NCBI RefSeq assembly: GCF_000145035.1 | Contig: NC_014387.1 | Location: 2,904,001-2,968,000 of the forward strand | Length of the DNA stretch: 64,000 bases | From: Butyrivibrio proteoclasticus B316 | Lineage (GTDB): Bacteria; Bacillota; Clostridia; Lachnospirales; Lachnospiraceae | Direction: 5' to 3' | In this document: positions 2,961 to 51,893 of the stretch, in pieces | Layout: each line of letters begins with the position of its first letter | How positions within the stretch are numbered: position 1 is the first letter of the stretch | Made by a program: the position numbers and the translations under genes | Notes under the pieces: generated by a model | What the model was told of the DNA's origin: nothing | The model's database searches: none | What the model saw: only the letters and a program-made list of their open reading frames with translations

Positions 2961-3767
2961 TTACGCTTTAGGGAGCTCAACATAAAAACAACTACCTTTT
3001 CCAAGTTTACTTTCGCACCAGATTCTTCCCCCGTGCTGCGTAACGATTCCTTTGACAATAGATAGCCCAAGGCCGCTGCTGCTCTCTCCATCAGGAGTCC
3101 TTGCCCCGCTTACTCTATAAGTTCTCTCAAATATATGGTCCAATGCCTCTTCAGGAATCCCTTTTCCGGTATCCTTTACATAAAATGTGGACAACTGCCC
3201 CTCATCCAATACTCCAAGAACTATATCAGCCCCATTCTCCGAGTACTTACGCGCATTGGTAAAAAGATTATCCAAAACTCTGCTCATCTTACCAACATCT
3301 ACATTTACTTCCGCATCATAATCATCCGGTATTTCGCATATTAGATTTCTCGCCGAATACTTATCATCTATCTGAGCAGCAAAAAAATATTCCTCAAGAA
3401 ACTGGGACAATGGCACTTTCTGAAGCTTAAGCTCATCGCTGCCATTTTCTATACATGTCAGATAGTACAAATCACTGATCAGAACTTCAAGTGTCCTTGT
3501 CCTGTTGTCTATCAGATGCAGCATCTGCGTCATCTCATCTCCGGAACTTTGAAGACCACAATCTGTATTTTTCTGATTAAGATAGTCTATAGCACTTCTG
3601 ATTGCAGTAAGTGGAGCCCTCAGATCATGGGAAATATTCTCAAGCATAAGCTTTCTCTCCCGTTCAGCCTGCTGCAATCTGGCATTCGCCTCCAATAATT
3701 TTTGGGACAACTCTGCCACTGTATTACTATCAACCTCAGGTTGCCTAAACTTTTTCTTTTCAGCCAT
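2961..3767 (-). CDS. Soluble sensor histidine kinase
   Basis: A 268-residue kinase of a two-component pair. The H-box is ISHDLRAPL, the N-box is DNLFTNARKYS, and the G1 (DTGKGIP), F (FERTYR) and G2 (SGLGLS) boxes are all present, so it should bind ATP and autophosphorylate. There is no membrane segment or recognisable sensor domain, only a short coiled coil ahead of the H-box, so the signal is probably cytoplasmic or comes through a partner. The ATG at 3767 has AAGGA at 6 nt; an earlier in-frame start would overlap the regulator gene. It is the last gene of the exporter and two-component operon. Confidence 0.9.
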   Translation of the reverse strand: MAEKKKFRQPEVDSNTVAELSQKLLEANARLQQAERERKLMLENISHDLRAPLTAIRSAIDYLNQKNTDCGLQSSGDEMTQMLHLIDNRTRTLEVLISDLYYLTCIENGSDELKLQKVPLSQFLEEYFFAAQIDDKYSARNLICEIPDDYDAEVNVDVGKMSRVLDNLFTNARKYSENGADIVLGVLDEGQLSTFYVKDTGKGIPEEALDHIFERTYRVSGARTPDGESSSGLGLSIVKGIVTQHGGRIWCESKLGKGSCFYVELPKA

Positions 3768-3787
3768 TGAAATTCCTTTCAGCCTGA

Positions 3788-4483
3788 TCATCTGCCGGGA
3801 TTAACAAGCTTGTATCCTTTAGACCACACTGTCTCGATCAGATTATCTACTCCTGTCTGATCCTGTATCTTTTTGCGCAATCTGGACACATTGACCATTA
3901 CGCTTCGTCTGTCTGTTTCTATGTATGTTCCCCAGAGTTTGAGCCCTATTTCCTCAAAAGTGATTTCTTTTCCGGGATTCTGAGCCAGAAATAATATAAG
4001 ATCATACTCTTTATTAGAAATAGGAATTTCAGTTTCTCTGTAGAACAATTTATGTTTCTCTCTATCAACAAAAAATGGATCAAGGTCAATGATCATATCG
4101 TCACGTTTCTGCACCTGTTTCTGAGAGTTTCTCTTAATATGCGCCATAATTCTGACATAAACTTCTCTGAGGCTGTACGGTTTTTCGATATAATCGTCTC
4201 CTCCAACTTCAAAACCTTCTATCTTATCATCCTCAGACACCTTGCCTGAAAGGAATAAAACAGGAACGTTTGTAACGCCTCTGATCTGCTTACAAAGGGC
4301 GTATCCATCAAGTTCCGGCATCATCACATCCAGCAAAATACAATCAGGCTTAAAGTTCCTGACAAGATCCATCGCCTGCGTTGATTTTGAACAAATTTCC
4401 ACCTTGCAATTCTTTTCCTCAAAGAATTTCTTGTTAATCTCTAAAACTTCAATATCATCATCCACCATAAGAATCTTGTACAT
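3788..4483 (-). CDS. OmpR-family response regulator
   Basis: 231 residues: a receiver domain (acidic pocket VDDD near residue 8, phospho-acceptor Asp in LLDVMMP, Lys in EKPYS) followed by a winged-helix DNA-binding domain with the SRLRKKI recognition helix. It is 5 nt downstream of the ABC exporter gene and 20 nt upstream of its kinase gene, so the three are co-transcribed. By context it is the best candidate to control the lasso-peptide genes. Its binding sites could not be identified. Confidence 0.93.
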   Translation of the reverse strand: MYKILMVDDDIEVLEINKKFFEEKNCKVEICSKSTQAMDLVRNFKPDCILLDVMMPELDGYALCKQIRGVTNVPVLFLSGKVSEDDKIEGFEVGGDDYIEKPYSLREVYVRIMAHIKRNSQKQVQKRDDMIIDLDPFFVDREKHKLFYRETEIPISNKEYDLILFLAQNPGKEITFEEIGLKLWGTYIETDRRSVMVNVSRLRKKIQDQTGVDNLIETVWSKGYKLVNPGR

Positions 4484-4488
4484 AACGC

Positions 4489-6186
4489 TTACCCCGCAAT
4501 TGAAGCCATCTTCTTATCAACTATCTGGATTTCTCTGTCACAATACTGTAATACTGACCTTCTATGTGTTATCAAAAGACATGTAGGTGAAGGATTCCAT
4601 TTCCTGATTCCCTCAAGTACGCTAAGTTCAGTACTCTCATCAAGAGAAGACGTGGCTTCGTCCAATATAAGGAAAGGAGCCTTTTTGACAAGTGCTCTGG
4701 CTATTGCAATTCTCTGAGCCTGACCTTCAGATATACCTACACCTTTTTCCCCAATAACCGTATCTATTCCACGCGGGAAATCCATAACAAAATCATAAGC
4801 CGCAGCACCCTTGAGAGCCTCTATGACTTCCTCGTCAGTGGCATCTTTTTTACCCATAAGTACGTTATCTTTAATGCTACCGCTAAACAAAGTATTTCCC
4901 TGAGGAACGTAAGCTATAAAGTTCCTGGCATCAGGACTTGCCTGCATTGTCTCACCTGCATCGTTGTAAAATTCAATATTGCCCTTCATCTTATTGGTAA
5001 AGGCCATGATAAGGCGGACTAATGTAGTCTTTCCAATTCCGGATTTACCTACGATTGCAGTGAATTCCCCGGGCTTAAAATCTATGCTGGCATCATCAAA
5101 TACCAGTTCATCTGTATAGCCAAAAGAAATTTTGTCTACTTTAACTCCAATGTTCTTCTGCTTAATTGATGCCCCGCTATACTCTTCCCTTGGAAGGTTC
5201 TGAAGTTCAATAATACGGCCTGCAGAAGCGAGCATTGAAATAAGCCTTGGTACCAACTGGGCAAGACTCACGATAGGAGCCTGTATTCTGTTAACCAGCT
5301 GCAGGAAAACAGTCATTGTACCATATGTGATAGTCCTGTTGGCTATGCAGATTGCTCCCCAGGCAAACGCAACTATATATCCAAGTTGGAATGATAGTCC
5401 CATAGCCGCTGATGCAAACATATTTGTTCTGTTCTTCTTAAACACCCAGTAAATACGCTCATCACGCAGCTGTGTAAGCCTCTCTTCTGAATAGTCCTCA
5501 AGACAAAATGACTTCTCTATGAGTATGTTGGCAAGACTTTCCTGCATAAATGAACGATATTTGGACTCTGTTTCCTGCACCTTAACAGTAAGATATTTCA
5601 GTTTTCTGCCCAGTACAACACTCGCAAACAAAGCAATTGGTGCTACAAGAAGTGCAAAAAGAGCAAGTTTTAGATCATAATATGCTAGTGTGCAAAATGT
5701 AACTAAAAGTTCAACTACCAACCTTATAATAGTAGGAATAGTAGATGAAATACCATCTGAAACAGCTCCAACATCACTGGTAAGTCTCGTCATCAGATCT
5801 CCAGTATGATATTTGGACACATCAATCCAGCAGGTATCAAGAATTCTTCTATAAACTTTCTTTCTGATTCCAAAACCAAATTTCTCATAAACAATGACAG
5901 AGAACAAGGAACTGACGATTCCCAAAAACTGTGAACCCAAAATTACGACAACATATATAGCTATTATTTTCCATAAATCTGACAGATTACCCTCAGAAGC
6001 CCTATCAATCATCTTTTTACCGATAATAGCCATCCCGACAGACATAAGTGTTGCTGCCAGATCAAATAGCATCAGTAAAAGAAGCTGCGGAATATATGGC
6101 TTACTGTAGCTGAGACACCATTTTAAATATTCCTTAGCATCATCTCTTTTATTCCAGTATTTTTTCAGCTTATCAAATTTCCCCAT
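4489..6186 (-). CDS. ABC exporter, fused membrane and ATPase domains (lasso-peptide exporter)
   Basis: A 565-residue half transporter that should act as a dimer. Residues about 30-320 form a six-helix exporter domain. The ATPase domain has Walker A at 380-388, Walker B plus Glu at 505-510 and the H-loop His at 541. The signature reads ISEGQ instead of LSGGQ, so its second Gly/Ser positions are changed although the glutamine is kept. There is no N-terminal C39 peptidase domain, which fits a pathway where a separate B2 protease removes the leader. It is 4 nt downstream of the B2 gene. Likely role: export of, and immunity to, the lasso peptide. Confidence 0.9.
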   Translation of the reverse strand: MGKFDKLKKYWNKRDDAKEYLKWCLSYSKPYIPQLLLLMLFDLAATLMSVGMAIIGKKMIDRASEGNLSDLWKIIAIYVVVILGSQFLGIVSSLFSVIVYEKFGFGIRKKVYRRILDTCWIDVSKYHTGDLMTRLTSDVGAVSDGISSTIPTIIRLVVELLVTFCTLAYYDLKLALFALLVAPIALFASVVLGRKLKYLTVKVQETESKYRSFMQESLANILIEKSFCLEDYSEERLTQLRDERIYWVFKKNRTNMFASAAMGLSFQLGYIVAFAWGAICIANRTITYGTMTVFLQLVNRIQAPIVSLAQLVPRLISMLASAGRIIELQNLPREEYSGASIKQKNIGVKVDKISFGYTDELVFDDASIDFKPGEFTAIVGKSGIGKTTLVRLIMAFTNKMKGNIEFYNDAGETMQASPDARNFIAYVPQGNTLFSGSIKDNVLMGKKDATDEEVIEALKGAAAYDFVMDFPRGIDTVIGEKGVGISEGQAQRIAIARALVKKAPFLILDEATSSLDESTELSVLEGIRKWNPSPTCLLITHRRSVLQYCDREIQIVDKKMASIAG

Positions 6187-6190
6187 TTTA

Positions 6191-6643
6191 TCACTTCATC
6201 CTTGATTTAAATTTGGCCACAACTCCATAACCTTCAGCTGTGCCATTCCCGCCGGTTACATACATCCTCCCAACACGTATCCATGCATGAGCAACCATCT
6301 TACCATCCAACTCTTTGCATCCAAGATACATAGTCGATTCAATTCCCTTTTCTGCCATAAGTCTCTGTGCCGTAAGGGCTCTGACCAGGCATTTACTCTC
6401 CCACTTAGTCTTATTGCATACCTGATTGACCGCATAGGCAACTCTTTTACAGAAGCGGTATTCATCCAGAGTAGCCTCCTCTGGAGTCTCTTCTCCTTCA
6501 ATTCCCCATTTCTTGTTCAATTTAGCAGTATCTTCATATAACATCTGAAATCTGAAACGGGCAGACAATACCCAGGCCTTTAAGGTCAATGCCTTATGCT
6601 CGTTATATCTGATAAATCTATATCCTCTTGCAATTATACCCAT
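6191..6643 (-). CDS. Lasso peptide B2 protein (transglutaminase-like leader protease)
   Basis: 150 residues, the length of split lasso B2 proteases. The family motifs are a Cys in SKCLVRALTAQRLM (C85) and a His in AHAWIRVG (H119), the nucleophile and base of the transglutaminase-like fold. It should cut the leader off the precursor after delivery by the PqqD-like B1 protein encoded at 12197-12460. ATG at 6643 with AAGGTGA upstream. First gene of the - strand operon with the exporter and two-component pair, and divergent from the precursor gene, which starts 125 nt away. Confidence 0.85.
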   Translation of the reverse strand: MGIIARGYRFIRYNEHKALTLKAWVLSARFRFQMLYEDTAKLNKKWGIEGEETPEEATLDEYRFCKRVAYAVNQVCNKTKWESKCLVRALTAQRLMAEKGIESTMYLGCKELDGKMVAHAWIRVGRMYVTGGNGTAEGYGVVAKFKSRMK

Positions 6644-6660
6644 AAATCACCTTATATAGT

Positions 6661-6688
6661 TTGAATTGTTTCAAAAAATAGTTACAAT
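6661..6688 (+). promoter_or_regulatory. Candidate promoter of the lasso precursor gene
   Basis: TTGAAT (6661-6666) and TACAAT (6683-6688) are separated by 16 nt, about 80 nt before the precursor start, in the 124-nt divergent spacer. The match is moderate, and the spacer must also hold the promoter of the leftward B2 operon. Confidence 0.4.
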
Positions 6689-6767
6689 TTTGTTAGAAAT
6701 CTTTACATTGACGTTTTCCCGCGATATTCTTGAGCAAACAAGTAATTTTAATAGGAGGAAAACTTGT

Positions 6768-6956
6768 ATGAAAAACTGGAACGCACCTGAAATCAAGGAG
6801 CTTTGTCTCAGCGGTACACAGCAGCATGGTACCCCAAATCCATACGTTGATGGAAAAATCTATGATGCTCAGAGAAACGAGAACTGGTTCACATTCAGCG
6901 GTAACAATGTAGACGATACTGCTACTCCAGGTGAAGTAATCATTGGCAATCCTTGA
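6768..6956 (+). CDS. Lasso peptide precursor (paeninodin-like leader, atypical core)
   Basis: A 62-residue peptide with an excellent AGGAGG site 9 nt before the ATG. An upstream in-frame ATG at 6666 has no site and is rejected. The leader W4-N-A-P7-E-I9-K-E-L12 through T17 lines up residue for residue with the Y-x-x-P-x-L...T leader of paeninodin-class precursors, with T17 at the usual -2 position. That places the core at Q19, about 44 residues, twice the usual 15-24. No Asp/Glu falls at core positions 7-9 (D28 is position 10). Starting at G21 would give a Gly1-Asp8 ring. S44 is the only Ser in the core and a candidate target of the nearby HPr-kinase-like enzyme. The + strand gene lies between two - strand operons that encode all maturation functions. 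Confidence 0.8.
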   Translation: MKNWNAPEIKELCLSGTQQHGTPNPYVDGKIYDAQRNENWFTFSGNNVDDTATPGEVIIGNP

Positions 6957-6984
6957 TACATAAGCCTGAGCTATCAAAGCATAG

Positions 6985-7011
6985 AAGGAGTCATTTATGA
7001 CTCCTTTTTTT
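6985..7011 (+). terminator. Intrinsic terminator of the precursor gene
   Basis: A 9-bp stem (6985-6993 with 6998-7006), TTTA loop and an uninterrupted T-run to 7011. It lies 28 nt past the precursor stop, so the precursor transcript is monocistronic. Confidence 0.92.
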
Positions 7012-7038
7012 GCGTTTCATCGAATCCCGCCGAGCTTA

Positions 7039-9003
7039 CTATATATTTATTACTTCGGAAAACTCGTCAAAAAATCTGCCAAGAGCTAAAATTCTGACGA
7101 CATTCAGGGCATTTTTCTCATTAATATCCTCTTTCATCAAGGCCTCTACACCATCCCGATTCATAAAGCCATAAACGGCTTCATTTATCTTGCTTTGGCG
7201 CTTATCTTCGCCGAAACTACTTAGTCTTTTTACCTTATCAGCCGCCTGTCTTCCCTTATACTTGTACTGCAGCCTTTCACGGTCAGGAAGATAGTCATCA
7301 AGGTATTCCCTGACTAATCGACGCTCCAATCCATTGAAAACATACTGATCCGGAGAAAATGATGCGCATAACTCAAGAAGTCTCTTATCCTTGGTAGGAT
7401 CCCTAAAGAGAACTCCAAAGTACAGACTATACTTGGTATCATATAATCCCTGAGTCTGAAGAATATTTATATCCCCCAAGTTCCTATACATTTTCTTCGG
7501 GCTCAAAACACTTGTAAAGCCATAGAAATTGAAACGTTTTATTAGCACTTTATTGATTCTATATTTACTCAGCATAGCTGGTTTTATAAGCTCATCGTCT
7601 ATAATCTTTTTATACGCATTATTGATTCCGAGCTTAAAAGTAACTTCTGATACTATTTCATCTAACATTCCCTGAAAAAGTGCCTTCCTAGGAATGCCAC
7701 ATTTGCCGCCATATATTCCCAGCTGTTTCTTAGCTTCCAGTACATGGCCGGATAAGAACTTCTGGAAGAAGTATTCCCTTATTTCTCCCCTTGAAATAGT
7801 AAAATTGCCAAATTCTCCAGTAAGCAGCACCTTACATCCTTTTTGAGATGCTGTTTTTATAATGTATTTCATCCATACCTGATTAACAAACGCTTTTCCG
7901 GGTATTTCAAACATATGGACAAGTTCATCCATTTCAGTAAAGGGACTCATGCCGTAACAATCACAAAATTCCTGTTCTATATTCGGATATCCGGCAATTA
8001 TATTCTTTACACCACTACTCTCATCCGTTATTTCCCATTTAGAAGTACTTTTATCAAATCCCTTTATCGGAACAGATGTAAAACCATAAAGTTTTCTGCC
8101 TTTTTTTTGCAATGACTTTGCGGCAACAGTCGCAACAGATGATGAATCAAGTCCACTGCTGATTGTTGCAGCAACTTCACCATCTGTATCCATAGCATCC
8201 TCTACACATTTGAAAAAGACGTCTCGAAAAGCCTCTCTATATGCGCTGTCTTTGGGATTCTTTGGCCATACTCTATCCAATTTACGGGTTATTCCAGGGG
8301 TATAATATACTACAGAGCGGTATTTCCATTTGTCTTTTCCTGGTTCTGCCTTAACATAATTACCGCGAACAGAATGATATACATTTCTAAATGGAGTACG
8401 ATCCGGAAATACATACATATATGGCGTGAGTGAAGCTTCACAACCAACTATAAACTGCTCGTCTATTCCCTTATACTCCTGTGGCATAACATTCAAAATA
8501 GGTTTTGAAAGAGTTGAGAAAAATAGCTCATTACCGCAAATACTATAATCCACGCATCTACTACCTGTATGATCTGTAAAGAGATAAAAGCTATTATCTT
8601 TTTTGTCATAAACAGCTATGGCAAATAAGCCTATAATATGATCAGTAAATTCATGTCCCCACTTTTTCCATGCATAAAAAGAAAGCTCCCCATCAGGAGT
8701 CTCTTCATTTAAACCGCCAACTCCAGCAACAGTTAGTTCTTCGATAAGTTTTTTCCTGTCATTTAATACCACATCAGCAGTGAAAACTATCTGACTTTCG
8801 CTGTCATAAATAGGTAGCCTTTCATTATGAGACCGCTTATTAAAGCATTGTAGCCCACATGCAAAAAAACCGTTTTCAAATTGTTCAATACCTATGCGTT
8901 CTATAACACACTCGTCATAAGGTTTTTTCATAAGCTCACTGAGCTTAGTATAGTCCTCTGAAGTATTATTCTTAAGATTGATATATCCCCATATTGCTGA
9001 CAT
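7039..9003 (-). CDS. Asparagine-synthase-like lasso cyclase
   Basis: 654 residues in two domains: an N-terminal glutaminase-like fold (1 to about 210) and a synthetase domain with the PPi loop SSGLDSS at 282-288. Asn synthetase B needs Cys at position 2 to release ammonia from glutamine. Here residue 2 is Ser, so the amidotransferase half should be inactive, as in lasso cyclases. Those enzymes adenylate an Asp/Glu side chain and join it to the peptide's own N-terminus. ATG at 9003 with GGGAA upstream. Last gene of the eight-gene - strand operon, ending 28 nt from the precursor terminator. Role assigned from neighbours plus the missing Cys2. Confidence 0.85.
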   Translation of the reverse strand: MSAIWGYINLKNNTSEDYTKLSELMKKPYDECVIERIGIEQFENGFFACGLQCFNKRSHNERLPIYDSESQIVFTADVVLNDRKKLIEELTVAGVGGLNEETPDGELSFYAWKKWGHEFTDHIIGLFAIAVYDKKDNSFYLFTDHTGSRCVDYSICGNELFFSTLSKPILNVMPQEYKGIDEQFIVGCEASLTPYMYVFPDRTPFRNVYHSVRGNYVKAEPGKDKWKYRSVVYYTPGITRKLDRVWPKNPKDSAYREAFRDVFFKCVEDAMDTDGEVAATISSGLDSSSVATVAAKSLQKKGRKLYGFTSVPIKGFDKSTSKWEITDESSGVKNIIAGYPNIEQEFCDCYGMSPFTEMDELVHMFEIPGKAFVNQVWMKYIIKTASQKGCKVLLTGEFGNFTISRGEIREYFFQKFLSGHVLEAKKQLGIYGGKCGIPRKALFQGMLDEIVSEVTFKLGINNAYKKIIDDELIKPAMLSKYRINKVLIKRFNFYGFTSVLSPKKMYRNLGDINILQTQGLYDTKYSLYFGVLFRDPTKDKRLLELCASFSPDQYVFNGLERRLVREYLDDYLPDRERLQYKYKGRQAADKVKRLSSFGEDKRQSKINEAVYGFMNRDGVEALMKEDINEKNALNVVRILALGRFFDEFSEVINI

Positions 9004-9017
9004 CTGATCATTCCCGC

Positions 9018-9953
9018 CTATATATTTTCAAGTATTCGATCAACAACCTCTTTTTTCGTCTCAACGCCTCTTACTCTTGTCACATCAATAATATTAATCT
9101 GACCGGCCAGATAAACACATTTGAGCATTTCATCAGGTTCAAGGCCAATTCCGTATCCATAGAGCCATTCAAGAAAAAATCTTGAAGTAATAGCATTTAC
9201 CTTCTCTGCTCCATCGATAAATCTGAGCTTAACGCCATTTACATACTCCTCGTCATTGACAGCCCGTGGAATAATATGGAGGGATACCATAGCATCAACC
9301 TTTCGTTTTTCATTCACGAAAATATCACGTCTGTCCACCGAGAACTTGTCTCTGTCTTCGTCAATATATCTGAGTTTTTCAAGATCATATCCATTAGACT
9401 CAGCTGCATCCCTGCATAGCTTCTGTTCAGGGAAGCCTGGATATGAATAGACTAAACCATCTTTTCCAACATCAAGAACTGAAATGTCATCTGCAAGCAG
9501 CTTGCCACCTTCATCTATCAATGCCATTGAAGTCGTAGACTTACCGGTACCGCTGTCTCCACATACAAGTACTGTCTTATCCCCAATAGACACAGTACTT
9601 CCATGAAGCACTATTTTTTTTCTCTGTGTCATGGCAAGAGCAATACCGTTTCCCATCAAAAATGATCTTGCAATACCTACATCTGTATTTTCATTTTTTT
9701 CGCAGATCATTCTGGTCTTCTCATTTATTGTCTCAACCAGAAAATCTCCTGCCTGATTATGAAACCACACTCCATGTTCAGTAAAAAAATGAATATGCCC
9801 TTTTTCCAGAAGCGATCTGTACTTCTCTTTAAGTGTTTTTTCTTTAGAAATATCTATCGTTATATCAGCTTCGCCCTGCTTATTACATTCAAGAAGCTGC
9901 GGAAATTCTGTATTTGACTCTGCGATTAGTCCATATAAGCTATATCTGTACAT
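9018..9953 (-). CDS. HPr-kinase-like P-loop kinase (lasso tailoring kinase)
   Basis: 311 residues with a P-loop (GDSGTGKST, about 132-140), an HGS motif before it (118-120) and an acidic pair DD at 155-156, the arrangement of the HPr kinase/phosphorylase C-terminal domain. Homologues in paeninodin-type lasso clusters (PadeK family) phosphorylate a Ser of the precursor. By that precedent S44 of the 6768-6956 peptide is the most likely target. The HPr-recognition loop typical of true HprK was not apparent and no ptsH is nearby. It lies 14 nt upstream of the cyclase gene and 9 nt after the nucleotidyltransferase gene. Confidence 0.82.
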   Translation of the reverse strand: MYRYSLYGLIAESNTEFPQLLECNKQGEADITIDISKEKTLKEKYRSLLEKGHIHFFTEHGVWFHNQAGDFLVETINEKTRMICEKNENTDVGIARSFLMGNGIALAMTQRKKIVLHGSTVSIGDKTVLVCGDSGTGKSTTSMALIDEGGKLLADDISVLDVGKDGLVYSYPGFPEQKLCRDAAESNGYDLEKLRYIDEDRDKFSVDRRDIFVNEKRKVDAMVSLHIIPRAVNDEEYVNGVKLRFIDGAEKVNAITSRFFLEWLYGYGIGLEPDEMLKCVYLAGQINIIDVTRVRGVETKKEVVDRILENI

Positions 9954-9962
9954 GAAAATATC

Positions 9963-11156
9963 TTACCTTCTAAAATTAAGATTGAGTCTGTGATACATTT
10001 CTATCATCATAGCTGCATCTTTTTCTTCAGTATTTTCAAACAACTGCTTATGCTTTTTGGCCTCGTCGCTACAAGCAGCAGTACATCCTCTGACTACCCA
10101 TGCTATAGGTAACAAAAAAGCCTTGTTCTCAAGCCATTTATACTTCTCAACCATAAATTTATATGAAGGAAAGTAATAATGGAGTCTTGCGTGATTCCCT
10201 TTTGGTGTTTCTTTGGCAAGCTGGCCCCAAATTCCGTTCTCACTCTTGCCATAGATTCCGCTATCTAACATATAAGTAAAAAGATTCTCATAGAATTCCG
10301 AACACTCAGTATTATCTAGCCAAATAAAGGCCAGCTCTCTCATGTTTATTTCAAAGTCTCTTATTCCACACTTGATAAGCTCTTTGTCCAGATATGCCCG
10401 ATTCATACTACCAGCATACTTATTCCAGAAAATATAGATATCCATAAGATTTCTGATTCCACATCCGGTCTCAAAGAAATGCTTACTCATATGTGCGATC
10501 ATATATACATAAAAGTCCTCATGAGAAAACTCGTACGTATACTTCTTTCCATCAGCAAGTTTCGCCCTAAAGTCTTTGAAATAAACGTGCTGATTATGAT
10601 CCACCTTTTCATCAAAGAGGCACCAATGAATCTCAACATGAAGGTTCCCGCCTTTACTAAAGATCATATGGTGCTTGATAAGGCCATGGTTTGTATATCC
10701 CATTGCCTCCATAACTTTAGCAGCTTTATCAAGAGACTCATCATAGACAACCAGATCAATATCGCTCATCTCACGCATTTCCGGAGAGGGATAATCATTT
10801 TTAATAATTGCTCCCTTTAATAGCTGATGCCTGATTCCTTCTCTTTCAAAGGCTTCTGTAATTTCTCTGCTGCCAACTGTCTGCATCAAAGTCATAAACG
10901 TACTGACTTTTAAGTCATTTCGCATAATTTCAGCATGCTTCTCATCAATATCAAGTTTAATTAATGAACTGGCAATTGGATAATAGATATGTCCTTTCGC
11001 TGCGTAATTTATCAATTCCCCGATATCTATGCCATCCGGAATATCATCCGGTTTTCTTTTTTCAAAACAGGCCTTTACAAGCTCGCTGTAATATATTCTG
11101 ATGTTGGCCTTACTAGCATCCATTTTCTGTTTTCCCCTAATACTTTTTTTCATCAT
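9963..11156 (-). CDS. Lasso-cluster nucleotidyltransferase (NTP_transf_5 type)
   Basis: 397 residues. The motif MSDIDLVVYDE gives the two metal-binding Asp of the polymerase-beta nucleotidyltransferase fold, preceded by LLKGA; a third acidic residue is in VEIHWCLFDE. This family (PF14907-like) recurs in lasso and HPrK-containing clusters, including paeninodin, where its reaction is not settled; transfer of a nucleotide to the kinase product has been considered. The ATG at 11156 overlaps the TGA of the upstream glycosyltransferase gene, with AAGGTGA just before it, so translation is coupled. A start at residue 13 (with AGGGG upstream) is possible. Confidence 0.75.
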   Translation of the reverse strand: MMKKSIRGKQKMDASKANIRIYYSELVKACFEKRKPDDIPDGIDIGELINYAAKGHIYYPIASSLIKLDIDEKHAEIMRNDLKVSTFMTLMQTVGSREITEAFEREGIRHQLLKGAIIKNDYPSPEMREMSDIDLVVYDESLDKAAKVMEAMGYTNHGLIKHHMIFSKGGNLHVEIHWCLFDEKVDHNQHVYFKDFRAKLADGKKYTYEFSHEDFYVYMIAHMSKHFFETGCGIRNLMDIYIFWNKYAGSMNRAYLDKELIKCGIRDFEINMRELAFIWLDNTECSEFYENLFTYMLDSGIYGKSENGIWGQLAKETPKGNHARLHYYFPSYKFMVEKYKWLENKAFLLPIAWVVRGCTAACSDEAKKHKQLFENTEEKDAAMMIEMYHRLNLNFRR

Positions 11157-12160
11157 CCAATCATCACCTTGGACAGGACATATGCATAAGGCGCACAATT
11201 CCATCTGGCGACTGATTTGATATACAGTCCAATCTTCCCTCTGAAATACTTGTTTTTATGATAATCCGGAAAAAATTTATTCACATAATCAAATGTTTTG
11301 TTAAATAACTCTTTTCTCAAATATCTGTTTGGGACTCTGCCTATTCTGCTAAAATTACTGCAAAAGGCTATCTTAACGCAGAAATACTCAAGTTCATCCT
11401 TGTATTTACTATAAATACCCTTTCTGTGATAAAAATCTGTTATGTCATAAAGTACCTTGAAAATGTCGCCGACTTTAGCTCCCAGATTCCTTGTCATAGT
11501 AGAACTCTGTCTGACACTGTAATATACAAGTTTCTCATCAAGATAAGCATGTTTTTTTATAAAAGGAAGTGCTTTTAGATAAAATGATGTATCCTCATAG
11601 ATCATCCCTTCTGGGAAAAAAACATCATTATCTATCAAAATGCTCTTTTTATATAACTTATTCCACGGTGAAACCTGCGGATTCAAAAACAATTCTCTCA
11701 CATCTTCATGCGCAGATATCGTTCCCCTGGTACCAATCTCTTTGTATGTCGGAAAAGAGCCATCTTCTGAAGCTATTTCAAACATGCTATGATAATGGCA
11801 CTCTACAAGATCTGCCCCATCAGACCTTGCCAGATTCAATAATTTCTCATACATTGTGACATCAACGTAATCGTCAGAATCTGCAAATCCTATATACTCC
11901 CCCCTTGCCTTTTGGATTCCCATATTCCTGGCAGTAGCCTGTCCGCCATTTGTCTTATGGAACACTCTTATAAGCTCAGGGTATTTTTCCTCATACTCCT
12001 GCAATATATCAGGTGAACTGTCTGTAGATCCGTCATCGACCACAACAATCTCCAATTCCGAATGAGGAATTGTCTGTCCGACAAGGGCATCAAGACATCG
12101 CTTTAAATATTTCTCGGTATTATAAACCGGTACAACTACACTTACCATATTCCCCGCCAT
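11153..12160 (-). CDS. Family 2 glycosyltransferase
   Basis: 335 residues. The N-terminal GT-A domain has SVVVPVYNTEKYL, VVDDGSTD and the DxD-type ADSDDYV that binds the nucleotide-sugar metal. A hydrophilic C-terminal half follows, with no membrane span. Start choice is weak: the ATG at 12160 is used, but the ATG at 12148 has GGGG close upstream and both keep the whole domain. It sits between the PqqD gene (36 nt) and the nucleotidyltransferase gene (4-nt overlap). Its acceptor is unknown: a lipid-linked sugar begun by the phosphosugar transferase of the same operon, or possibly the peptide. Confidence 0.85.
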   Translation of the reverse strand: MAGNMVSVVVPVYNTEKYLKRCLDALVGQTIPHSELEIVVVDDGSTDSSPDILQEYEEKYPELIRVFHKTNGGQATARNMGIQKARGEYIGFADSDDYVDVTMYEKLLNLARSDGADLVECHYHSMFEIASEDGSFPTYKEIGTRGTISAHEDVRELFLNPQVSPWNKLYKKSILIDNDVFFPEGMIYEDTSFYLKALPFIKKHAYLDEKLVYYSVRQSSTMTRNLGAKVGDIFKVLYDITDFYHRKGIYSKYKDELEYFCVKIAFCSNFSRIGRVPNRYLRKELFNKTFDYVNKFFPDYHKNKYFRGKIGLYIKSVARWNCAPYAYVLSKVMIG

Positions 12161-12196
12161 CACTTTATTCAAAGACTATAAGCAAGATTCCTCTGC

Positions 12197-12460
12197 TCAA
12201 ATAAAGTCAAGCTCTTTAAGTTTGCCCAGAAATTCCTGTACTGATGCTGTACATTCTTCCCTTGAAACATCATACTCACCAAGAAGTCTGTTGATAATAT
12301 CCTCTACAGTAATTTCCTCCTGAATAAGATCCCATATATCATTTCCGGCTCCTTTTATCATAAAATATTTGCCGGATTCAAAATCTATCATTACCTTCTC
12401 CCCTGACAGATCTGTTACATTGAGCTGTTTTTTCAGCTTGACTGACTCCTTCATATCCAT
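12197..12460 (-). CDS. PqqD family protein (lasso B1, leader recognition element)
   Basis: 87 residues with the PqqD/RRE fold signature: beta strands LSGEKVMIDFESGKYFMI, then GNDIWDLI and a C-terminal helix-turn-helix with VQEFLGKLKELDFI. In lasso systems this small protein grips the precursor leader and presents it to the B2 protease and cyclase. ATG at 12460 with GGAGGAA upstream. The B1 gene is separated from the B2 gene (6191-6643) by more than 5 kb and lies between sugar genes, an unusual layout. Confidence 0.9.
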   Translation of the reverse strand: MDMKESVKLKKQLNVTDLSGEKVMIDFESGKYFMIKGAGNDIWDLIQEEITVEDIINRLLGEYDVSREECTASVQEFLGKLKELDFI

Positions 12461-12480
12461 TTTTTACATTCCTCCCTAAA

Positions 12481-13884
12481 TTAATATGCCCCTTTTCTCG
12501 TAAGCAGTACCCCAACTGTCTTGATGAGAATTGCAATATCCGCACTTAAGGACCAGTTGTCTATATACCTTAAATCCAGTTCTACAACCTCATCAAAATC
12601 CGTTATACTATTTCTGCCACTTATCTGCCACAATCCGGTTACTCCAGGCTTAATACTGATCCTTCTCCACTGCCCACGCTCATACTTTGATACTTCATCA
12701 ACTGTAGGAGGTCTTGTCCCCACAAGACTCATGTCTCCCTTGATAACGTTAAATAGCTGTGGAAGCTCATCAATACTTGTCTTCCTGATAAATTTACCCA
12801 CTTTTGTGACACGGGGATCATCCTTGATCTTAAACATGAAGCCGTCCATTTCATTTTTCTGGAGCAGCTCCTCTTTTCTAGCCTCTGCATCCACACACAT
12901 ACTACGGAACTTGTACATATTGAAGGTGCGACCGTTCTGCCCTACTCTCTTCTGTTTAAAAATAACAGGTCCTTCTGAGTCAAACTTTATTGCAATAGCA
13001 GTTACAAGCATGACAGGTGACAGAACAACCGTCGCAAATACACTTAACATAATATCCAGAATTCTCTTAATTGCCTGTTCATAACTGTTAAGAGCTATAG
13101 TGTGATATGTAATAAGTGGAAATGTTCCGACAGAACTTACATAGCTGTTAGATCTAAGCATTCTATGAGAATAAGAGACATCCAGAACAACTCTGACTGT
13201 TACTCCCATCTCAAGACATATATCTATGTATTTCTGTATCTGAGCTATATTATCATCGCTATGCTGGATAAAATAGACCTGATCAATCTCCTTGTTTCTG
13301 ATAATCTGCTCCAGATCTTCTATTTTCCCCAATGTGTTAAACACCTTTTTTTCAGGCATTTCACCGTCTAGGATATAACCAACTTCTTCAACCTTCATGC
13401 TGGTCTTATTAAGAAAATAATTAAACTTCTCATATTCCTCAAACATACCAACAAAAGCTGCTCTCGGAGCCTGAATGTTTGTAAACATCATCTGCAATAA
13501 TCTGCTGAGAACCATATTTATGCATATAGCAACATAAGTCCAGGCAATATAATACAAATGAAATCTCCTGATATTATAATGCGGATTGTATACATACATG
13601 AGAACCATGGTTATACCTGCTGCCAGTATCCAGGACTTGGTAATAATCTTCCAAAATCTGTCCAGATAGAAAAATAGTGTGACGTTGTATATTCTTGCTT
13701 CCTTATTAGCCAAAATGTAAATCACTATAAAAGCAACAACAAGCGCAAGACATTTGAGATTGGAAGATGGTAAAATAACATTCTCAAACGCCTTGCGCTC
13801 AATTAAATATACTAATAAAAGGACTAAAATGTCCTCGATCATCTGTATAGTATTTGTATTGGCTCCTTTATTACTACGATTCAT
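12481..13884 (-). CDS. Polyprenyl sugar-phosphate transferase (WbaP/EpsL-like)
   Basis: 467 residues. The first 140 or so include several membrane helices; a CoA-binding-like central domain follows (VGMFEEYEKF, YILDGEMPEK). The C-terminal phosphosugar transferase domain has KRILDIMLSV, FKQKRVGQNG, MYKFRSM, a DELPQ loop, GTRPP and KPGVTGLWQISGR. It should move a sugar-1-phosphate from UDP or GDP to undecaprenyl phosphate, the first step of exopolysaccharide or glycan assembly. It lies 20 nt upstream of the PqqD gene and 16 nt after the PssE-like gene, so it is co-transcribed with the lasso genes. Confidence 0.93.
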   Translation of the reverse strand: MNRSNKGANTNTIQMIEDILVLLLVYLIERKAFENVILPSSNLKCLALVVAFIVIYILANKEARIYNVTLFFYLDRFWKIITKSWILAAGITMVLMYVYNPHYNIRRFHLYYIAWTYVAICINMVLSRLLQMMFTNIQAPRAAFVGMFEEYEKFNYFLNKTSMKVEEVGYILDGEMPEKKVFNTLGKIEDLEQIIRNKEIDQVYFIQHSDDNIAQIQKYIDICLEMGVTVRVVLDVSYSHRMLRSNSYVSSVGTFPLITYHTIALNSYEQAIKRILDIMLSVFATVVLSPVMLVTAIAIKFDSEGPVIFKQKRVGQNGRTFNMYKFRSMCVDAEARKEELLQKNEMDGFMFKIKDDPRVTKVGKFIRKTSIDELPQLFNVIKGDMSLVGTRPPTVDEVSKYERGQWRRISIKPGVTGLWQISGRNSITDFDEVVELDLRYIDNWSLSADIAILIKTVGVLLTRKGAY

Positions 13885-13900
13885 TTATCTGTCCTAATTC

Positions 13901-14377
13901 TCAGTCAAAAATATTGATAAATCGCATGATAGTCTCCTCAATGTTGCCGCCCTTAAGTTCGTATGGTTTAAAATCAAACGTCCTTGCCTTATCAATATAA
14001 TCCTTTAATTCTGTTACTTCTTCACATTTTAAAACGCATCCCTTTGATGAGAATGCTTCTGCTATCTGACACTGGTGATCATCTACATGTTCCAGATATT
14101 TATTCTTACGTGGTACTACGATTATTGGTTTCTTGGAATTGATGCCTGATATGATGGTACCCACCCCCGCGTGGGTGATAAGCACGCTGCACTCAGCTAT
14201 TTTCTTGTTATAATCCGCCACATCCATAAAATCTGTATATTGGCAATTCTTGGGGACATAATCCGACCACCCCTTTTGCACAAATATCCCCTCAGATATT
14301 TGCGTGGCCAATTCATCCGCAGCCTTTACCAGCCTATTCATCTGAAATTTCTGTGTCCCCAAAGTGACAAAAATCAA
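13901..14377 (-). CDS. Alg13/PssE-like glycosyltransferase subunit
   Basis: 158 residues starting MIFVTLGTQKFQMNR with the donor-binding end THAGVGTIISGI...KPIIVVPRK...HQ, typical of the Alg13-like C-terminal GT-B half (PssE, Cps14G, EpsF). These act as heterodimers with an Alg14-like membrane partner, encoded just upstream with a 4-nt overlap. Together they usually add the second sugar to an undecaprenyl-diphospho-sugar, which fits the next gene, the initiating transferase. Confidence 0.9.
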   Translation of the reverse strand: MIFVTLGTQKFQMNRLVKAADELATQISEGIFVQKGWSDYVPKNCQYTDFMDVADYNKKIAECSVLITHAGVGTIISGINSKKPIIVVPRKNKYLEHVDDHQCQIAEAFSSKGCVLKCEEVTELKDYIDKARTFDFKPYELKGGNIEETIMRFINIFD

Positions 14378-14847
14378 AATATTCCGCCTCCAAGCATCGA
14401 TTTCGGATATTTCTCAAGCATATCTTCCCATTGCACCATAAAAAGATCTGACATGTTGTAAACAAGTTTTCCTGTAAGAGATGGCTCGTTGACTCTTGCA
14501 AAAGACTCAACGTAAACAACCTTAATTCCAAGAAGCTTACCGACAACGCAAAACGGATATGCTACCAAAGCACCTGTAGTTATTATAAAATCAGGCCTCT
14601 CTTTGAGAAGAATGCGTAAGGTTCTATAAAACAACCAAATAAATTTAGGCAAAAAATTAAGTTGCCTTCTATTCATCATTGGCACAATATATCTCTTGTC
14701 ACAGAAATTCTTGATTTCAAAATCACTTTTCTCTGTAACCAGAAAACAGTCATATGCCTTCTCTATTCCCTTGAGTCTGGATATCTCTTCCAGGTGACCA
14801 CCTGAAGATGCGACAAAACAAATCTTTTTAACCCCCTCTTTATTCAT
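14374..14847 (-). CDS. Alg14/PssD-like glycosyltransferase subunit
   Basis: 157 residues with ICFVASSGGHLEEISRLKG, the glycine/His loop of Alg14-like N-terminal GT-B halves, and a hydrophobic surface segment (FIWLFYRTLRILL) for membrane attachment. It recruits the PssE-like partner to the membrane. ATG at 14847 with GGAGG 5 nt upstream; an in-frame codon four residues earlier lacks a site. First gene of the operon that runs leftward to the cyclase gene. Confidence 0.88.
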   Translation of the reverse strand: MNKEGVKKICFVASSGGHLEEISRLKGIEKAYDCFLVTEKSDFEIKNFCDKRYIVPMMNRRQLNFLPKFIWLFYRTLRILLKERPDFIITTGALVAYPFCVVGKLLGIKVVYVESFARVNEPSLTGKLVYNMSDLFMVQWEDMLEKYPKSMLGGGIF

Positions 14848-15126
14848 ACAAACCTCCACTTACAAATACACGGGTTCCCCCAGTTAACAGCGTATATTCG
14901 TCCCCTTAAATGCAGACAAGTATAAAATATATCTTTTCACTAAATACTTTAAACTGTACTCAATCATAAAATCTATCATATTTGTTAGATTTTTTGAATA
15001 GGGATTTAATATAAATAATATTATTTTTATAATTTTTATTTATTTTTTTACTAATATCGTTGAATTTGATATGTAAAGGCCTTAAAATTAACTAACTTTA
15101 CAACAATTGCAAAGGAGTACAGAATT
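14848..15126. other. AT-rich divergent spacer between the lasso operon and dapF
   Basis: 279 nt without a gene. The right end holds the dapF promoter and ribosome site (AAAGGAG at 15111-15117). The left part must carry the promoter of the leftward eight-gene operon: a TATACT-like element is present on the - strand near 14920, but no convincing -35 was found, which would fit an activator-dependent promoter. A long A/T tract spans about 14995-15055. Confidence 0.6.
15060..15088 (+). promoter_or_regulatory. Promoter of dapF
   Basis: TTGAAT (15060-15065), 17-nt spacer, TAAAAT (15083-15088), about 40 nt before the dapF start. Confidence 0.65.
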
Positions 15127-21796: not shown

Positions 21797-21872
21797 AGGC
21801 ATATCTCCACTTATTCATTCTCACAAAACCGCGCTAGTGTGGTTATATATATGTTCATCAGGTAATTTATGT

Positions 21873-22331: not shown

Positions 22332-22373
22332 TATGTGCCCCCATAATCAATTCTTTCTAACCCTGCAATAACA

Positions 22374-23204: not shown

Positions 23205-23252
23205 GAATCCCCCTGTAAAATACAGTCAAAATGTACGATTTATGGTTTATGA

Positions 23253-38466: not shown

Positions 38467-40017
38467 ATGAAATTAAACAGAACAAAAAATGCGGTAAGAA
38501 ATTCTTTTTTTGGGGGAATAAATTTCGCATACACTACTATCGCACCTTTTATCATGCGAACTCTCATGCTCTATTATCTTGGTGTAGAGTACACAGGTCT
38601 TAATGGTCTATTTGCATCCATTTTACAAGTACTGAATCTGACAGAACTCGGCGTCGGAAGCGCCATGAACTACAGTATGTACAGAGCCATAGCAAATGAT
38701 GACGAGGCACAGATTTGCGCTCTTATGAAGTTATACAGGAAATACTATAGGATCATCGGCTCTGTTATTGCAGTAATAGGTCTTATTATTCTTCCCTTCG
38801 TTCCAAAGCTTATAAAAGGAAGTGTTCCTGAAGATCTTAATGTATTTGTCCTTTATATTCTTAATCTTGCAACTACAGTATTTAGTTACTTTCTCTTTGC
38901 TTACAGAAATTGTCTGGTAGCCTCTTTTCAAAGAAATGATATAACCAGCAAGGTTACAATCAGCGTACATACAGTTACATATATTTTGCAGGCAATAGCG
39001 CTTGTTTTATTTAGAAACTATTATATTTACCTGATATTATCACTGGCTTCTCAGCTTCTGATAAATGTATGTACTGCATATATCACGACCAAAATGTTTC
39101 CTAAATATCATCCTGAAGGCGAATTATCAAAAGACACTATCACAGCTATCAATCGCAGAGTTAAGGATATCTTTACTGCCAAGTTTTCCACAGTAGTAAT
39201 GAATTCTTCTGATCCAATTATCATTTCTTCGTTTTTAGGTCTTACCGCACTGGCTATGTACCAGAATTACTACTACATAGTACATGCTCTTGCTACACTT
39301 TTATCAGTTCTCCTCTCTTCAGTCATGGCTGGATTTGGAAATAGCCTTCTTACCGAAACTTCTGAGAAGAACATTAGAGACCTCAAGAAATTCACAATGA
39401 TAATTATGTGGCTCTCATCTGTCTTTGTTGTTGGAATAATATCTTGTATTCAGCCTGTTATGGATATATGGGTAGGCCCTGATCTAAAGTTTAGTTTTGG
39501 CATCGTTATCTGTTTTTGCATTTATTATTTCACAAGTGCGACGCTTCGTCTTTTTAACATGTACAAAGATGCTGCTGGTATCTGGACTTATGATAAATAC
39601 AGACCTATGGTGGCTGCAGGAGCAAATCTCACTCTTAATCTTTTAACCGTGCGCTTTTTAGGCATTTACGGTATTATCCTTTCAACTGTAGTAGCCCAGC
39701 TTGTTATATCTATCCCATGGATACTTAGAAACCTTTTCAAATATGTATTTGATCAGAAAGCTTTTTTCTCATATGTAAAGAGAATAATATTCTATTTTGT
39801 TGATGCCATTATAATATGTGTTATTTCACTTATTGTATGTAACCAGATAGTTCTATCTCCTTGGCTTACCTTTATAACAAGAGGCATTGTATGCGTTATC
39901 ATATCAAACGTACTTATACTGGTAACATTCAAAATGCTGCCTGAATTTGATGATTGTAAAGAATTGCTCATCAAATTAATTAGTAAAGGCAGGAAGCGTC
40001 TTAGTAAAAAGTCATAA
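38467..40017 (+). CDS. Polysaccharide flippase (Wzx/MATE-like)
   Basis: 516 residues with about 12 to 14 membrane helices. The opening FFGGINFAYTTIAPFIMRTLMLYYLGVEYTGLNGLFASILQVLNLTELGVGSA matches the polysaccharide-transporter branch of the MOP superfamily. It moves undecaprenyl-linked repeat units to the outer face of the membrane. ATG with AAGGGGA upstream. It faces away from the - strand glycan genes that start at 40785, separated by a bidirectional terminator, and is probably the flippase of that locus. Confidence 0.9.
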   Translation: MKLNRTKNAVRNSFFGGINFAYTTIAPFIMRTLMLYYLGVEYTGLNGLFASILQVLNLTELGVGSAMNYSMYRAIANDDEAQICALMKLYRKYYRIIGSVIAVIGLIILPFVPKLIKGSVPEDLNVFVLYILNLATTVFSYFLFAYRNCLVASFQRNDITSKVTISVHTVTYILQAIALVLFRNYYIYLILSLASQLLINVCTAYITTKMFPKYHPEGELSKDTITAINRRVKDIFTAKFSTVVMNSSDPIIISSFLGLTALAMYQNYYYIVHALATLLSVLLSSVMAGFGNSLLTETSEKNIRDLKKFTMIIMWLSSVFVVGIISCIQPVMDIWVGPDLKFSFGIVICFCIYYFTSATLRLFNMYKDAAGIWTYDKYRPMVAAGANLTLNLLTVRFLGIYGIILSTVVAQLVISIPWILRNLFKYVFDQKAFFSYVKRIIFYFVDAIIICVISLIVCNQIVLSPWLTFITRGIVCVIISNVLILVTFKMLPEFDDCKELLIKLISKGRKRLSKKS

Positions 40018-40062: not shown

Positions 40063-40785
40063 TTATTTCTGAAAAATAGCTTTTACTCTTTCGTAGCTCT
40101 CTACGTCTCCGATGTCATATCTCTTCCCCGGCATAACAAAAGCATGCATTGTCTTCTGAGTGCTGAGCCATGCTGCGAAACTTCCCGGAGCGTCGTATCC
40201 GCAGCCCGCATCAAGAGCTGTCTGTATGAGCTGTAGATCCTCTGCCTTATAGAAATAAAATGGCGGAACAGCATGATTTCCCTTTGGATTAACAGGCTTT
40301 TCTTCATAAGAAGTAATCTTACAATTATCATCCATTGTAATAACTGCTGTTTTCCTAAGTGCCTCCAGTCTGTCTTCCGGATGACACATTACACAAGCTG
40401 TGCCCTTATCCCTTGCGAACTCCACGAACTTGCCAAGAGAGAAATCGAGAAGGTTGTCTCCCGCCATTACAATGCAATCATCCTTGATATCTGCTTTATT
40501 TACTGCAAGCTGTATATCCTTAACTGCTCCAAGTCTTGTTTCGTTGCTAGTAGTACCATCATCTATGATAGTGATATTCCCACTTCTACCTTTTGCCCAA
40601 TCCTCGAAAATCTGAGCAAATTTATGATTGGATACTACAATAAATTCATCTATCACAGGCTCAATATCATCAATAAGCCAGTCCAGTATCGCCTTGTCTC
40701 CAACCTTTAACAAAGGTTTAGGAAAATTCTCTGTAAGAGGATATAGTCTTGTAGCATATCCCGCCGCTAAAATAATACACTTCAT
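40063..40785 (-). CDS. Sugar-1-phosphate nucleotidyltransferase
   Basis: 240 residues, GT-A-like nucleotidyltransferase. The signature is ILAAGYATRLYPLTENFPKPLLKVGDKAILDW (G-x-G loop altered to AAGYATRL), with VMAGDNLLDFS for the metal and EEKPVNPKG. It activates a sugar phosphate to an NDP-sugar. Its ATG overlaps the stop of the GHMP kinase gene (ATGA), so the two act in series: kinase makes sugar-1-phosphate, this enzyme adds the nucleotide. The sugar is unknown. Confidence 0.9.
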   Translation of the reverse strand: MKCIILAAGYATRLYPLTENFPKPLLKVGDKAILDWLIDDIEPVIDEFIVVSNHKFAQIFEDWAKGRSGNITIIDDGTTSNETRLGAVKDIQLAVNKADIKDDCIVMAGDNLLDFSLGKFVEFARDKGTACVMCHPEDRLEALRKTAVITMDDNCKITSYEEKPVNPKGNHAVPPFYFYKAEDLQLIQTALDAGCGYDAPGSFAAWLSTQKTMHAFVMPGKRYDIGDVESYERVKAIFQK

Positions 40786-41954: not shown

Positions 41955-41978
41955 ATTCTAATGTTCCCCATAATATTC

Positions 41979-43154: not shown

Positions 43155-43157
43155 AAA

Positions 43158-44321: not shown

Positions 44322-44329
44322 GAATTACC

Positions 44330-45346: not shown

Positions 45347-45366
45347 TCCAACTAGTTTCCCCGTAA

Positions 45367-49547: not shown

Positions 49548-49557
49548 TTTATAACCT

Positions 49558-51879: not shown

Positions 51880-51893
51880 ATGAAACTCCCTTT

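Follow-up and report, generated by a model that had tools for sequence, protein, structure and literature searches.

What is made when genes for a lasso peptide and genes for a lipid-linked sugar are packed into one operon? The question is raised by a locus of the rumen bacterium Butyrivibrio proteoclasticus B316, found in a stretch of 64,000 nucleotides (contig NC_014387.1, positions 2,904,001 to 2,968,000 of the forward strand) that is called the window throughout. On its minus strand, candidate lasso genes for a leader-binding protein of the PqqD family (B1), a nucleotidyltransferase (NTP_transf_5), an HPrK-like kinase (HPrK) and a macrolactam cyclase (C) alternate with genes for PssD, PssE, WbaP and a GT2 glycosyltransferase. 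An earlier note on this DNA had proposed that a peptide and an undecaprenyl-linked sugar are made together, or else that a lasso cassette landed in a glycan operon. The present analysis favours, with a probability of roughly 0.6, two products under one switch: the head of an exopolysaccharide (EPS) pathway with a stably interleaved lasso pathway of the paeninodin type, whose peptide and polymer would be made together as separate products, the interleaving being older than the split of the sampled Butyrivibrio species.

Conservation of the interleaved locus

Gene identities were assigned with Pfam and NCBIfam profiles, the bits being set against the curated cut-off of each family. Positions are window coordinates unless prefixed by a contig (C1, C2), and G000 is B316, the genome of the window. 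A total of 79 Butyrivibrio genomes were searched for the lasso leader peptidase B2 (PF13471) and for PssE, and the surrounding stretches were mapped. An orthologous PssE, defined by at least 60% identity to that of the window, is present in 12 species (G000, G080, G067, G014, G084, G019, G098, G088, G068, G020, G074 and G065). The order PssD-PssE-WbaP-B1 is invariant in all of them, with B1 4-28 nt behind WbaP, so that the gene order around PqqD, a check suggested in the earlier note, does recur in other genomes. Because this order has been kept in 12 species, a recent landing of a lasso cassette in a glycan operon is rejected.

Except in G000 and G080, the genes after B1 are a Wzz/BY-kinase gene, a GT2, usually another GT2 and a Wzy-like gene. 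In these ten long-form loci, where the contig is readable further, mostly GT32-type genes, VanZ, CotH and then NTP_transf_5 come next (Pfam). Wzx lies closely behind NTP_transf_5 in G019, G098, G068, G020 and G065 and past the regulator genes in G088, G067 and G014. The pair HPrK-C adjoins B2 and the exporter gene D in G000, G080, G014, G019, G065 and G068 and is found 7-14 kb past B2-D in G098, G088 and G020; in G067, where the contig ends, HPrK and C were not seen, and in G084 they lie with B2 on another contig. Wzx, Wzy and Wzz share one contig stretch with WbaP in G019, G098, G088, G068, G020 and G074; those of B316 lie 24-38 kb from it, outside its transcription unit. The lasso genes are thus split in several pieces inside a Wzx/Wzy EPS locus. 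In a further set of species (G062, G061, G066, G101, G005, G008, G090 and G025), the same functions are combined in different orders and distributed over both strands. The precursor gene lasA is opposite to C in 10 of the 18 Butyrivibrio loci that have both genes and on the same strand in 8, and the idea that it is always opposite to the cyclase was rejected.

In B316 itself, every lasso and sugar gene that the earlier note had placed in one minus-strand unit (14847-7039) was recovered at its position (Table 1), and its upper bound of 36 nt for the gaps holds with room to spare. The junctions are an overlap of 4 nt (PssD/PssE), 16 nt (PssE/WbaP), 20 nt (WbaP/B1), 24 nt (B1/GT2, the largest gap in the eight-gene unit), an overlap (GT2/NTP_transf_5), 9 nt (NTP_transf_5/HPrK) and 14 nt (HPrK/C). 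lasA lies outside this unit on the plus strand, and B2, D, the response regulator and the histidine kinase (6643-2961) come after a gap of 395 nt. Since this gap between C and B2 contains lasA and its hairpin, which is also scored on the minus strand (7006-6985 in a pattern scan) directly behind the cyclase, the minus-strand transcript may end there. Within 14847-7039 the pattern scan gave some terminator-like and promoter-like matches on the minus strand, all intragenic and of a kind classed as no evidence of function; over the whole region there are 15 terminator-like matches against 6.0 expected. A hexamer scan of the whole region (54 promoter-like matches, 41.2 expected) was not used as evidence.

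The B2 profile is above its family cut-off in 25/79 Butyrivibrio genomes and reaches at least 40 bits in 24/79, a set that leaves out G034 (27.6 bits, a 487-aa frame) and includes G074, though B2 is a remnant there. Of these 24 genomes, 17 carry PssE at most 25 kb from B2 on the same contig, and in five (G067, G084, G014, G065 and G077) it is on another contig, which leaves the distance undecidable. The remaining two, G079 and G099, have no PssE match, and their B2 has Wzx at 16 kb and WbaP at 5 kb, respectively. Beyond the genus, a B2 profile matched in 13 of the 396 genomes sampled from the family, the window's genome included, the matches of G514 and G433 containing one stop. EPS markers (a WbaP, PssD/E, Wzy, Wzx or Wzz-like gene of at least 40 bits) occur in the stretches of 10 of the 12 other lasso-positive genomes (11 genera) and in 0 of 13 control stretches, a comparison that is not length-matched (mostly 40 kb against 20 kb). 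G697 is counted through a Wzz-like gene only, and some markers of G433, G640 and G616 are near the stretch edge; the two marker-free genomes are G664, represented by a 9-kb contig only, and G528. Adjacency of WbaP and B1 was not seen in these 12 genomes. The precursor of G321 is identical to one listed for Lachnospira multipara.

Table 1. Features of the lasso-EPS locus, its promoter boxes and the polymer block of B316 (window coordinates)
Feature	Position	Strand	Evidence
PssD/Alg14-like glycosyltransferase subunit	14374..14847	-	Pfam Alg14; NCBIfam PssD 168 bits (cut-off 110); ATG at 14847 after GGAGG
PssE/Alg13-like glycosyltransferase subunit	13901..14377	-	Pfam Glyco_tran_28_C; NCBIfam PssE 137 bits (cut-off 120)
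WbaP/EPS-type initiating phosphoglycosyl transferase	12481..13884	-	Pfam Bac_transf 239 bits; EPS_sugtrans TIGR03025 399 bits (cut-off 296)
Lasso RRE (B1, PqqD family)	12197..12460	-	Pfam PqqD; NF033536 78.2 bits, below cut-off 80; nearest solved chain 9x90_B (lasso PqqD-family chaperone)
GT2 glycosyltransferase	11153..12172	-	Pfam Glycos_transf_2; present in 12/12 orthologous loci
NTP_transf_5 (PsmN-type candidate)	9963..11204	-	Pfam NTP_transf_5 195 bits; listed start overlaps GT2, later start likely
HPrK-like kinase (PadeK/PsmK-type candidate)	9018..9953	-	Pfam Hpr_kinase_C 36.5 bits (cut-off 33.3)
Lasso macrolactam cyclase candidate (C, AsnB-like)	7039..9003	-	Pfam Asn_synthase (above cut-off) and GATase_7; best NCBIfam is lasso cyclase NF033535, 134 bits against cut-off 525
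lasA, lasso precursor, 62 aa	6768..6956	+	Antisense to operon; ribosome-binding site AGGAGG; leader motif WxxPxI; same as the B316 precursor in Table 3 of PMC7533575
Intrinsic terminator 3' of lasA	hairpin 6983..7008, then T's	+	-19.2 kcal/mol, z -3.8, 0/200 shuffles equally stable
Lasso leader peptidase B2	6191..6643	-	Pfam Transglut_core3; lasso_biosyn_B2 NF033537 71 bits (cut-off 33); C85 and H119 invariant in 16/16 aligned
ABC exporter (D)	4489..6186	-	Pfam ABC_membrane and ABC_tran
OmpR/PhoB-type response regulator	3788..4483	-	Pfam Response_reg and Trans_reg_C
Histidine kinase	2961..3791	-	Pfam HisKA and HATPase_c
Core of box in lasA promoter, TTACAATTTTGTTAGA	6682..6697	+	Alignment, matrix scan, pattern search
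Sister box 5' of sugar operon, TAACAAATATGATAGA	14972..14987	-	Identical in 7 species; alignment, matrix scan, pattern search
Wzz/BY-kinase-like protein	50488..51897	-	Pfam AAA_31 above cut-off; Wzz 22.6 bits, below 25.5; 42-44% identity to post-B1 protein of five long-form loci
GT2 of polymer block	49558..50484	-	Annotation and comparison with relatives
Wzy-like polymerase	48198..49619	-	46% identity to long-form Wzy-like protein (match 48222-49532); Pfam Wzy_C 27 bits, below cut-off 31.7
VanZ, CotH, GT92, pyruvyl transferase, FrhB-like, GHMP kinase, sugar-1-P nucleotidyltransferase	40063..48179	-	Pfam; syntenic in G080
Wzx-like flippase	38467..40017	+	Pfam Polysacc_synt; 87% identity to G080 copy, 26-29% to long-form Wzx

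The polymer block and the promoter boxes

The polymer genes that follow B1 in the long forms have homologues in B316 at 38-53 kb of the window. This block has the order Wzz/BY-kinase, GT2, Wzy, VanZ, CotH, that is, the long-form order minus two GT32-type genes, and is syntenic in G080. No Bac_transf gene was found in the block, and the nearest of the seven in the genome is the WbaP of the lasso locus, about 24 kb from Wzx, from which we infer that the sugar genes at the lasso locus most likely initiate the repeat unit for the block. With this homologous block in hand, the notion that the short form is a deletion derivative without polymer genes was dropped; that the block simply moved is not claimed, as its Wzx is too divergent. 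A second chain-length pair is present in the window at 20738-23984, where conserved LCP, BY-kinase and Wzz genes are 87-97% identical in G080 and G067, and the polymer block is adjoined at 55106-58225 by a gene for a protein of 1039 aa that combines papain-like, lectin-like and List_Bact repeat domains.

Further evidence comes from the promoters. In 10/10 aligned loci, a box near TTACAATTTTGTTAGATTTCTTTA (20-24 of 24 letters) begins 79-102 nt before the start codon of lasA. When a matrix was built without the window's site, the window's lasA promoter had the highest score of any position (30.8, the runner-up 8.0), with its sugar-operon promoter in third place (5.0). With the matrix, the PssD promoter is the best match of the stretch in G020, G074 (13.9 against 13.7) and G068, the second in G014 and G065, the fourth in G084 and G019 and the fifth in G067. 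The pattern TWACARWTWTGWTAGA has 29 matches, spread over 10 of the 12 whole genomes, against one for a reversed control: 8 stand before lasA, 7 before PssD and 14 elsewhere. The seven before PssD all have the core TAACAAATATGATAGA (G000, G080, G067, G014, G084, G019 and G065, where it overlaps the longest PssD frame). When the window was searched for the pattern plus TTT with 2 mismatches, matches fell only on the lasA and sugar-operon promoters (3 matches, 0.15 expected). The conserved lasA box and its divergent sister before the sugar operon suggest that the two are co-regulated, and the OmpR-type regulator encoded at the locus is the likely, though putative, common controller that would bind the box.

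Four other box sites were read in B316, one before a 55-aa WxxP peptide, one before proteins without a Pfam match and two intragenic. The first of these belongs to a second peptide locus (L208, G000:C1:2052500-2054200; box at 154, open reading frame 239-406 on the plus strand), whose precursor has a C-terminal Ser and whose adjoining HPrK-like gene (520-1503, minus strand) scores 293 bits to the HPrK profile and 24.3 bits, below the cut-off, in Pfam. In G008 (L082, 447 +) and G090 (L087, 12512 +), a second box, of higher score, stands before additional precursors that contain Pro, end in Ser and lie both upstream of C and opposite to it.

One product or two

If two products are made, WbaP would load the first sugar phosphate onto undecaprenyl phosphate, PssD/PssE and the GT2 would extend the lipid-linked sugar, and Wzx, Wzy and Wzz, in B316 most likely those at 38-53 kb, would flip and polymerise the repeat unit. 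On the peptide side, B1 would bind the WxxP leader of LasA, HPrK would probably phosphorylate one of its Ser residues, NTP_transf_5 would probably add a hexose to that phosphate by the pseudomycoidin route, B2 and C would cut and cyclise the peptide, and D would export it. lasA would be transcribed antisense from its own promoter, with related boxes there and at the sugar operon and an OmpR-type regulator as likely shared controller, and peptide and polymer would meet outside the cell as separate products.

A natural loss bears on this division of labour. G074 retains PssD, PssE, WbaP, B1, the EPS genes including Wzx, and the regulator and kinase of the locus, and its B2 is a remnant with stops. 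It has lost NTP_transf_5, the lasso cyclase, HPrK and the exporter, a distant AsnB-like match (C2:2,703,313) lying elsewhere. Sugar genes can therefore persist without the peptide, one of the two findings that together, according to the earlier note, would refute its proposal; the other, a promoter or terminator separating the genes inside 14847-7039, was not shown. In G074 (L077 8885-9154 and L078 3461-3900), B1 is intact despite the loss of the other lasso genes and the decay of B2, and in G068 B2 and C are truncated.

Between B316 and G080, the ratio of non-synonymous to synonymous substitution (dN/dS), with synonymous sites close to saturation, is 0.05 for PssD, 0.03 for PssE and WbaP, 0.06 for GT2, 0.09 for NTP_transf_5, 0.10 for HPrK and 0.15 for C. 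Mean identity is 38% for HPrK and 36% for C (10 species) and 78% for B1 and 70% for WbaP (12 species). Distances correlate at 0.71 for B1-WbaP and 0.78 for C-HPrK, values that are descriptive because the species are related; the Wzz and Wzy rows were excluded, as paralogues were mixed and one species was missing. By these comparisons HPrK-C behaves like an exchangeable cassette.

One form of the earlier proposal is a glycosylated lasso peptide, for which PssD/E, WbaP and GT2 would build a lipid-linked oligosaccharide that is moved to the phosphorylated peptide. The tight packing of the operon, the strong purifying selection on initiation genes and GT2 in B316/G080, the position of NTP_transf_5 amid polysaccharide genes in the long forms and the hexose reported on the phospho-Ser of pseudomycoidin (PMC9266682) would all fit such a product, as would the absence from B316, and save for one glycosyltransferase from G080, of the long-form genes between B1 and NTP_transf_5 other than GT2. 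Yet the same sugar genes head EPS loci in relatives, a homologous polymer block lies in the window, G074 keeps the sugar genes without a working lasso set, and no oligosaccharyltransferase family is among the Pfam-scanned proteins of the unit, which makes this product unlikely. Given the EPS-locus context in relatives, the B316 polymer block and the loss in G074, the most likely role of the sugar genes is to initiate a polymer rather than to modify the peptide. What stands of the earlier proposal is a conserved, possibly co-regulated locus; a glycan dedicated to the peptide is not supported. Hexosylation of the lasso peptide, if any, is likelier to proceed via HPrK and NTP_transf_5 than from an undecaprenyl-linked sugar. 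A 2025 study, known by its title through the reference list of Popov et al., reportedly describes iterative glycosylation of a mature lasso peptide, and for this reason a glycosyltransferase of the EPS locus may act on the peptide.

It is also conceivable that EPS loci, as hot spots of diversification that are shuffled and transferred in blocks, harbour lasso genes without any functional link. This would agree with the patchy, transfer-rich histories reported in Bacilli (Popov et al., 2026; PMC13381572) and with the exchange of the HPrK-C cassette, whose low identities contrast with that of B1 and whose members diverge in step. Against such hitch-hiking, which we consider rather doubtful, B1 stays behind WbaP in 12/12 loci and tracks it in distance, related boxes stand before both lasA and the sugar operon, and EPS markers accompany B2 in other genera. 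A knotted-peptide-tagged capsule, with the lasso peptide built into the EPS as a structural component and NTP_transf_5 chemistry linking its (phospho)Ser to the polymer or to an undecaprenyl-linked precursor, seems very improbable. The long Pro/Thr-rich tails of the G098, G020, G088 and G528 precursors, which have Ser as the last residue or next to it, would be the spacers of such an anchor, but the G528 stretch is without an EPS gene. Least probable of all is that the peptide controls or times EPS synthesis, for instance as a signal to the encoded two-component system or as an inhibitor of an EPS enzyme. The two-component genes at the locus end, the related boxes in both promoters and the Wzz/BY-kinase gene after B1 in the long forms could be so understood; on the other hand, the regulator, kinase, box and EPS genes persist in G074, which has no working lasso set, and precursor cores differ greatly among species though the regulator genes are conserved.

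The two-product reading has its own difficulties. The species compared are kin, and locus counts are therefore not independent. In B316 the polymer block is 24-38 kb from the locus, and its Wzx is just 26-29% identical to the long-form Wzx, which matches C1:3,078,379 (29%) as well as window 38476-39969 (28%). Any of the seven Bac_transf genes of the genome could serve the block, and so could any of the 13 EPS loci of B316 (PMC2914790). As for the boxes, the sequences from which the consensus was taken by eye include the window's own, and the sugar-promoter box of B316 is divergent, its score of 5.0 being reached by 38 of 2000 shuffles of the region. The PssD promoter is outside the six best matrix matches in G098, G088 and, by this matrix, G080, and that of G019 scores 1.8. 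G020 and G074 are without an exact match to the pattern, and of its 29 matches 14 are away from both lasA and PssD, including two intragenic ones among the four sites examined in B316.

Lasso class and known systems

The leader of LasA, WNAPEI, fits the WxxPx(hydrophobic) motif of paeninodin-type precursors. A lasso ring joins Gly to Asp or Glu over 7-9 residues. With the core split published for B316 (PMC7533575), the ring would run from Gly21 to Asp28 and agrees with this rule. The same cut places Thr at -4 of the leader and not at the usual -2 (PMC10368454), so the true cut is uncertain, and either its position or the size of the ring may deviate from the norm. The spacing from Thr to the ring Asp, taken by eye, is 10 residues in B316, G080, G019, G008 and G062 and 9 in G065. 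LasA of B316 is missing the C-terminal Ser that serves as phosphorylation site in the paeninodin type, its last residue being a Pro well behind the Ser of an FSG motif; such a Ser is found in precursors of some relatives, for example G098 and G020. Cores vary strongly among species, and a homologue search with the LasA precursor found only itself.

The Butyrivibrio B1 profile scores 72 bits to 9x90_B (lasso PqqD chaperone) and 23 bits to 9x8z_B (PqqD family protein), the former probably the paeninodin RRE and the latter the RRE of linear polyphosphorylated peptides (LPP), and B1 is a discrete protein as expected. B2 has the Cys and His of a leader peptidase, and kinase and NTP_transf_5 are both in the cluster, as in pseudomycoidin-type gene sets. 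A SipW-like signal peptidase, characteristic of LPP clusters, was not among the Pfam-scanned genes of 2961-14859. A PDB search with NTP_transf_5 gave nothing usable.

The B316 cluster and precursor have been published as a prediction, with 85% of the complete rumen clusters carrying kinases and 36% glycosyltransferases, and lasA reads of B316 were detected in a beef-cattle rumen metatranscriptome (PMC7533575). In the text available for that study, neither a Wzx/Wzy locus nor the promoter box nor the adjacency of WbaP and B1 is described. Co-location of lasso clusters with capsule loci is already known from Bacilli (Popov et al., 2026; PMC13381572), where paeninodin-type clusters share with the present one the W-type leader, discrete RRE, B2, cyclase, HPrK, NTP transferase, ABC exporter and polysaccharide-gene setting, and where the role of these peptides is stated as unknown. 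As far as the accessible part of that paper goes, the Butyrivibrio group differs in its B1 fixed behind WbaP, NTP_transf_5 among glycosyltransferases, related peptide and sugar promoter boxes and, in B316, a polymer block split off; no SipW-like peptidase family is among the scanned proteins of the unit. The psm cluster of Bacillus pseudomycoides likewise has an HPrK-like kinase and a nucleotidyltransferase-family protein beside its lasso genes, which place phosphate and then hexose on Ser; the B316 precursor, in contrast, ends in Pro, and the portion of the review consulted mentions no initiating transferase or PssD/E for psm (PMC9266682). A literature search, with most subscription papers outside its reach, found no description of either the WbaP-B1 arrangement or the promoter box, and the conserved lasA box with its divergent sister before the sugar operon is apparently new. 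With the genus-wide interleaving, the related boxes and the lasso loss in G074, a link between peptide and extracellular matrix can be put to a direct test, and the rumen bacterium concerned produces copious ropy EPS (PMC2914790).

Some observations extend to other loci. Long Pro/Thr-rich precursor tails ending in or next to Ser occur in G098 (L070 16813-17043), G088 (L072 14342-14539), G020 (L205 3908-4144) and G528 (L187 17777-17980), and in the first three, which are Butyrivibrio, they accompany a different HPrK-C cassette. NTP_transf_5 was rejected as a marker of lasso loci, since 103 of 343 genomes of the order carry it above cut-off. Among 40 NTP_transf_5 stretches hand-picked outside the genus, about one per genus, five have a B2 match (L126, L127, L139, L147 and L158, at 52 bits). 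Other such loci of the order (e.g. L132, L137, L138, L143 and L155) lack B2 and cyclase but contain an ABC exporter and PqqD-like genes, to which some add Wzz-like or HPrK-like ones, and may encode LPP-like peptides outside Bacilli.

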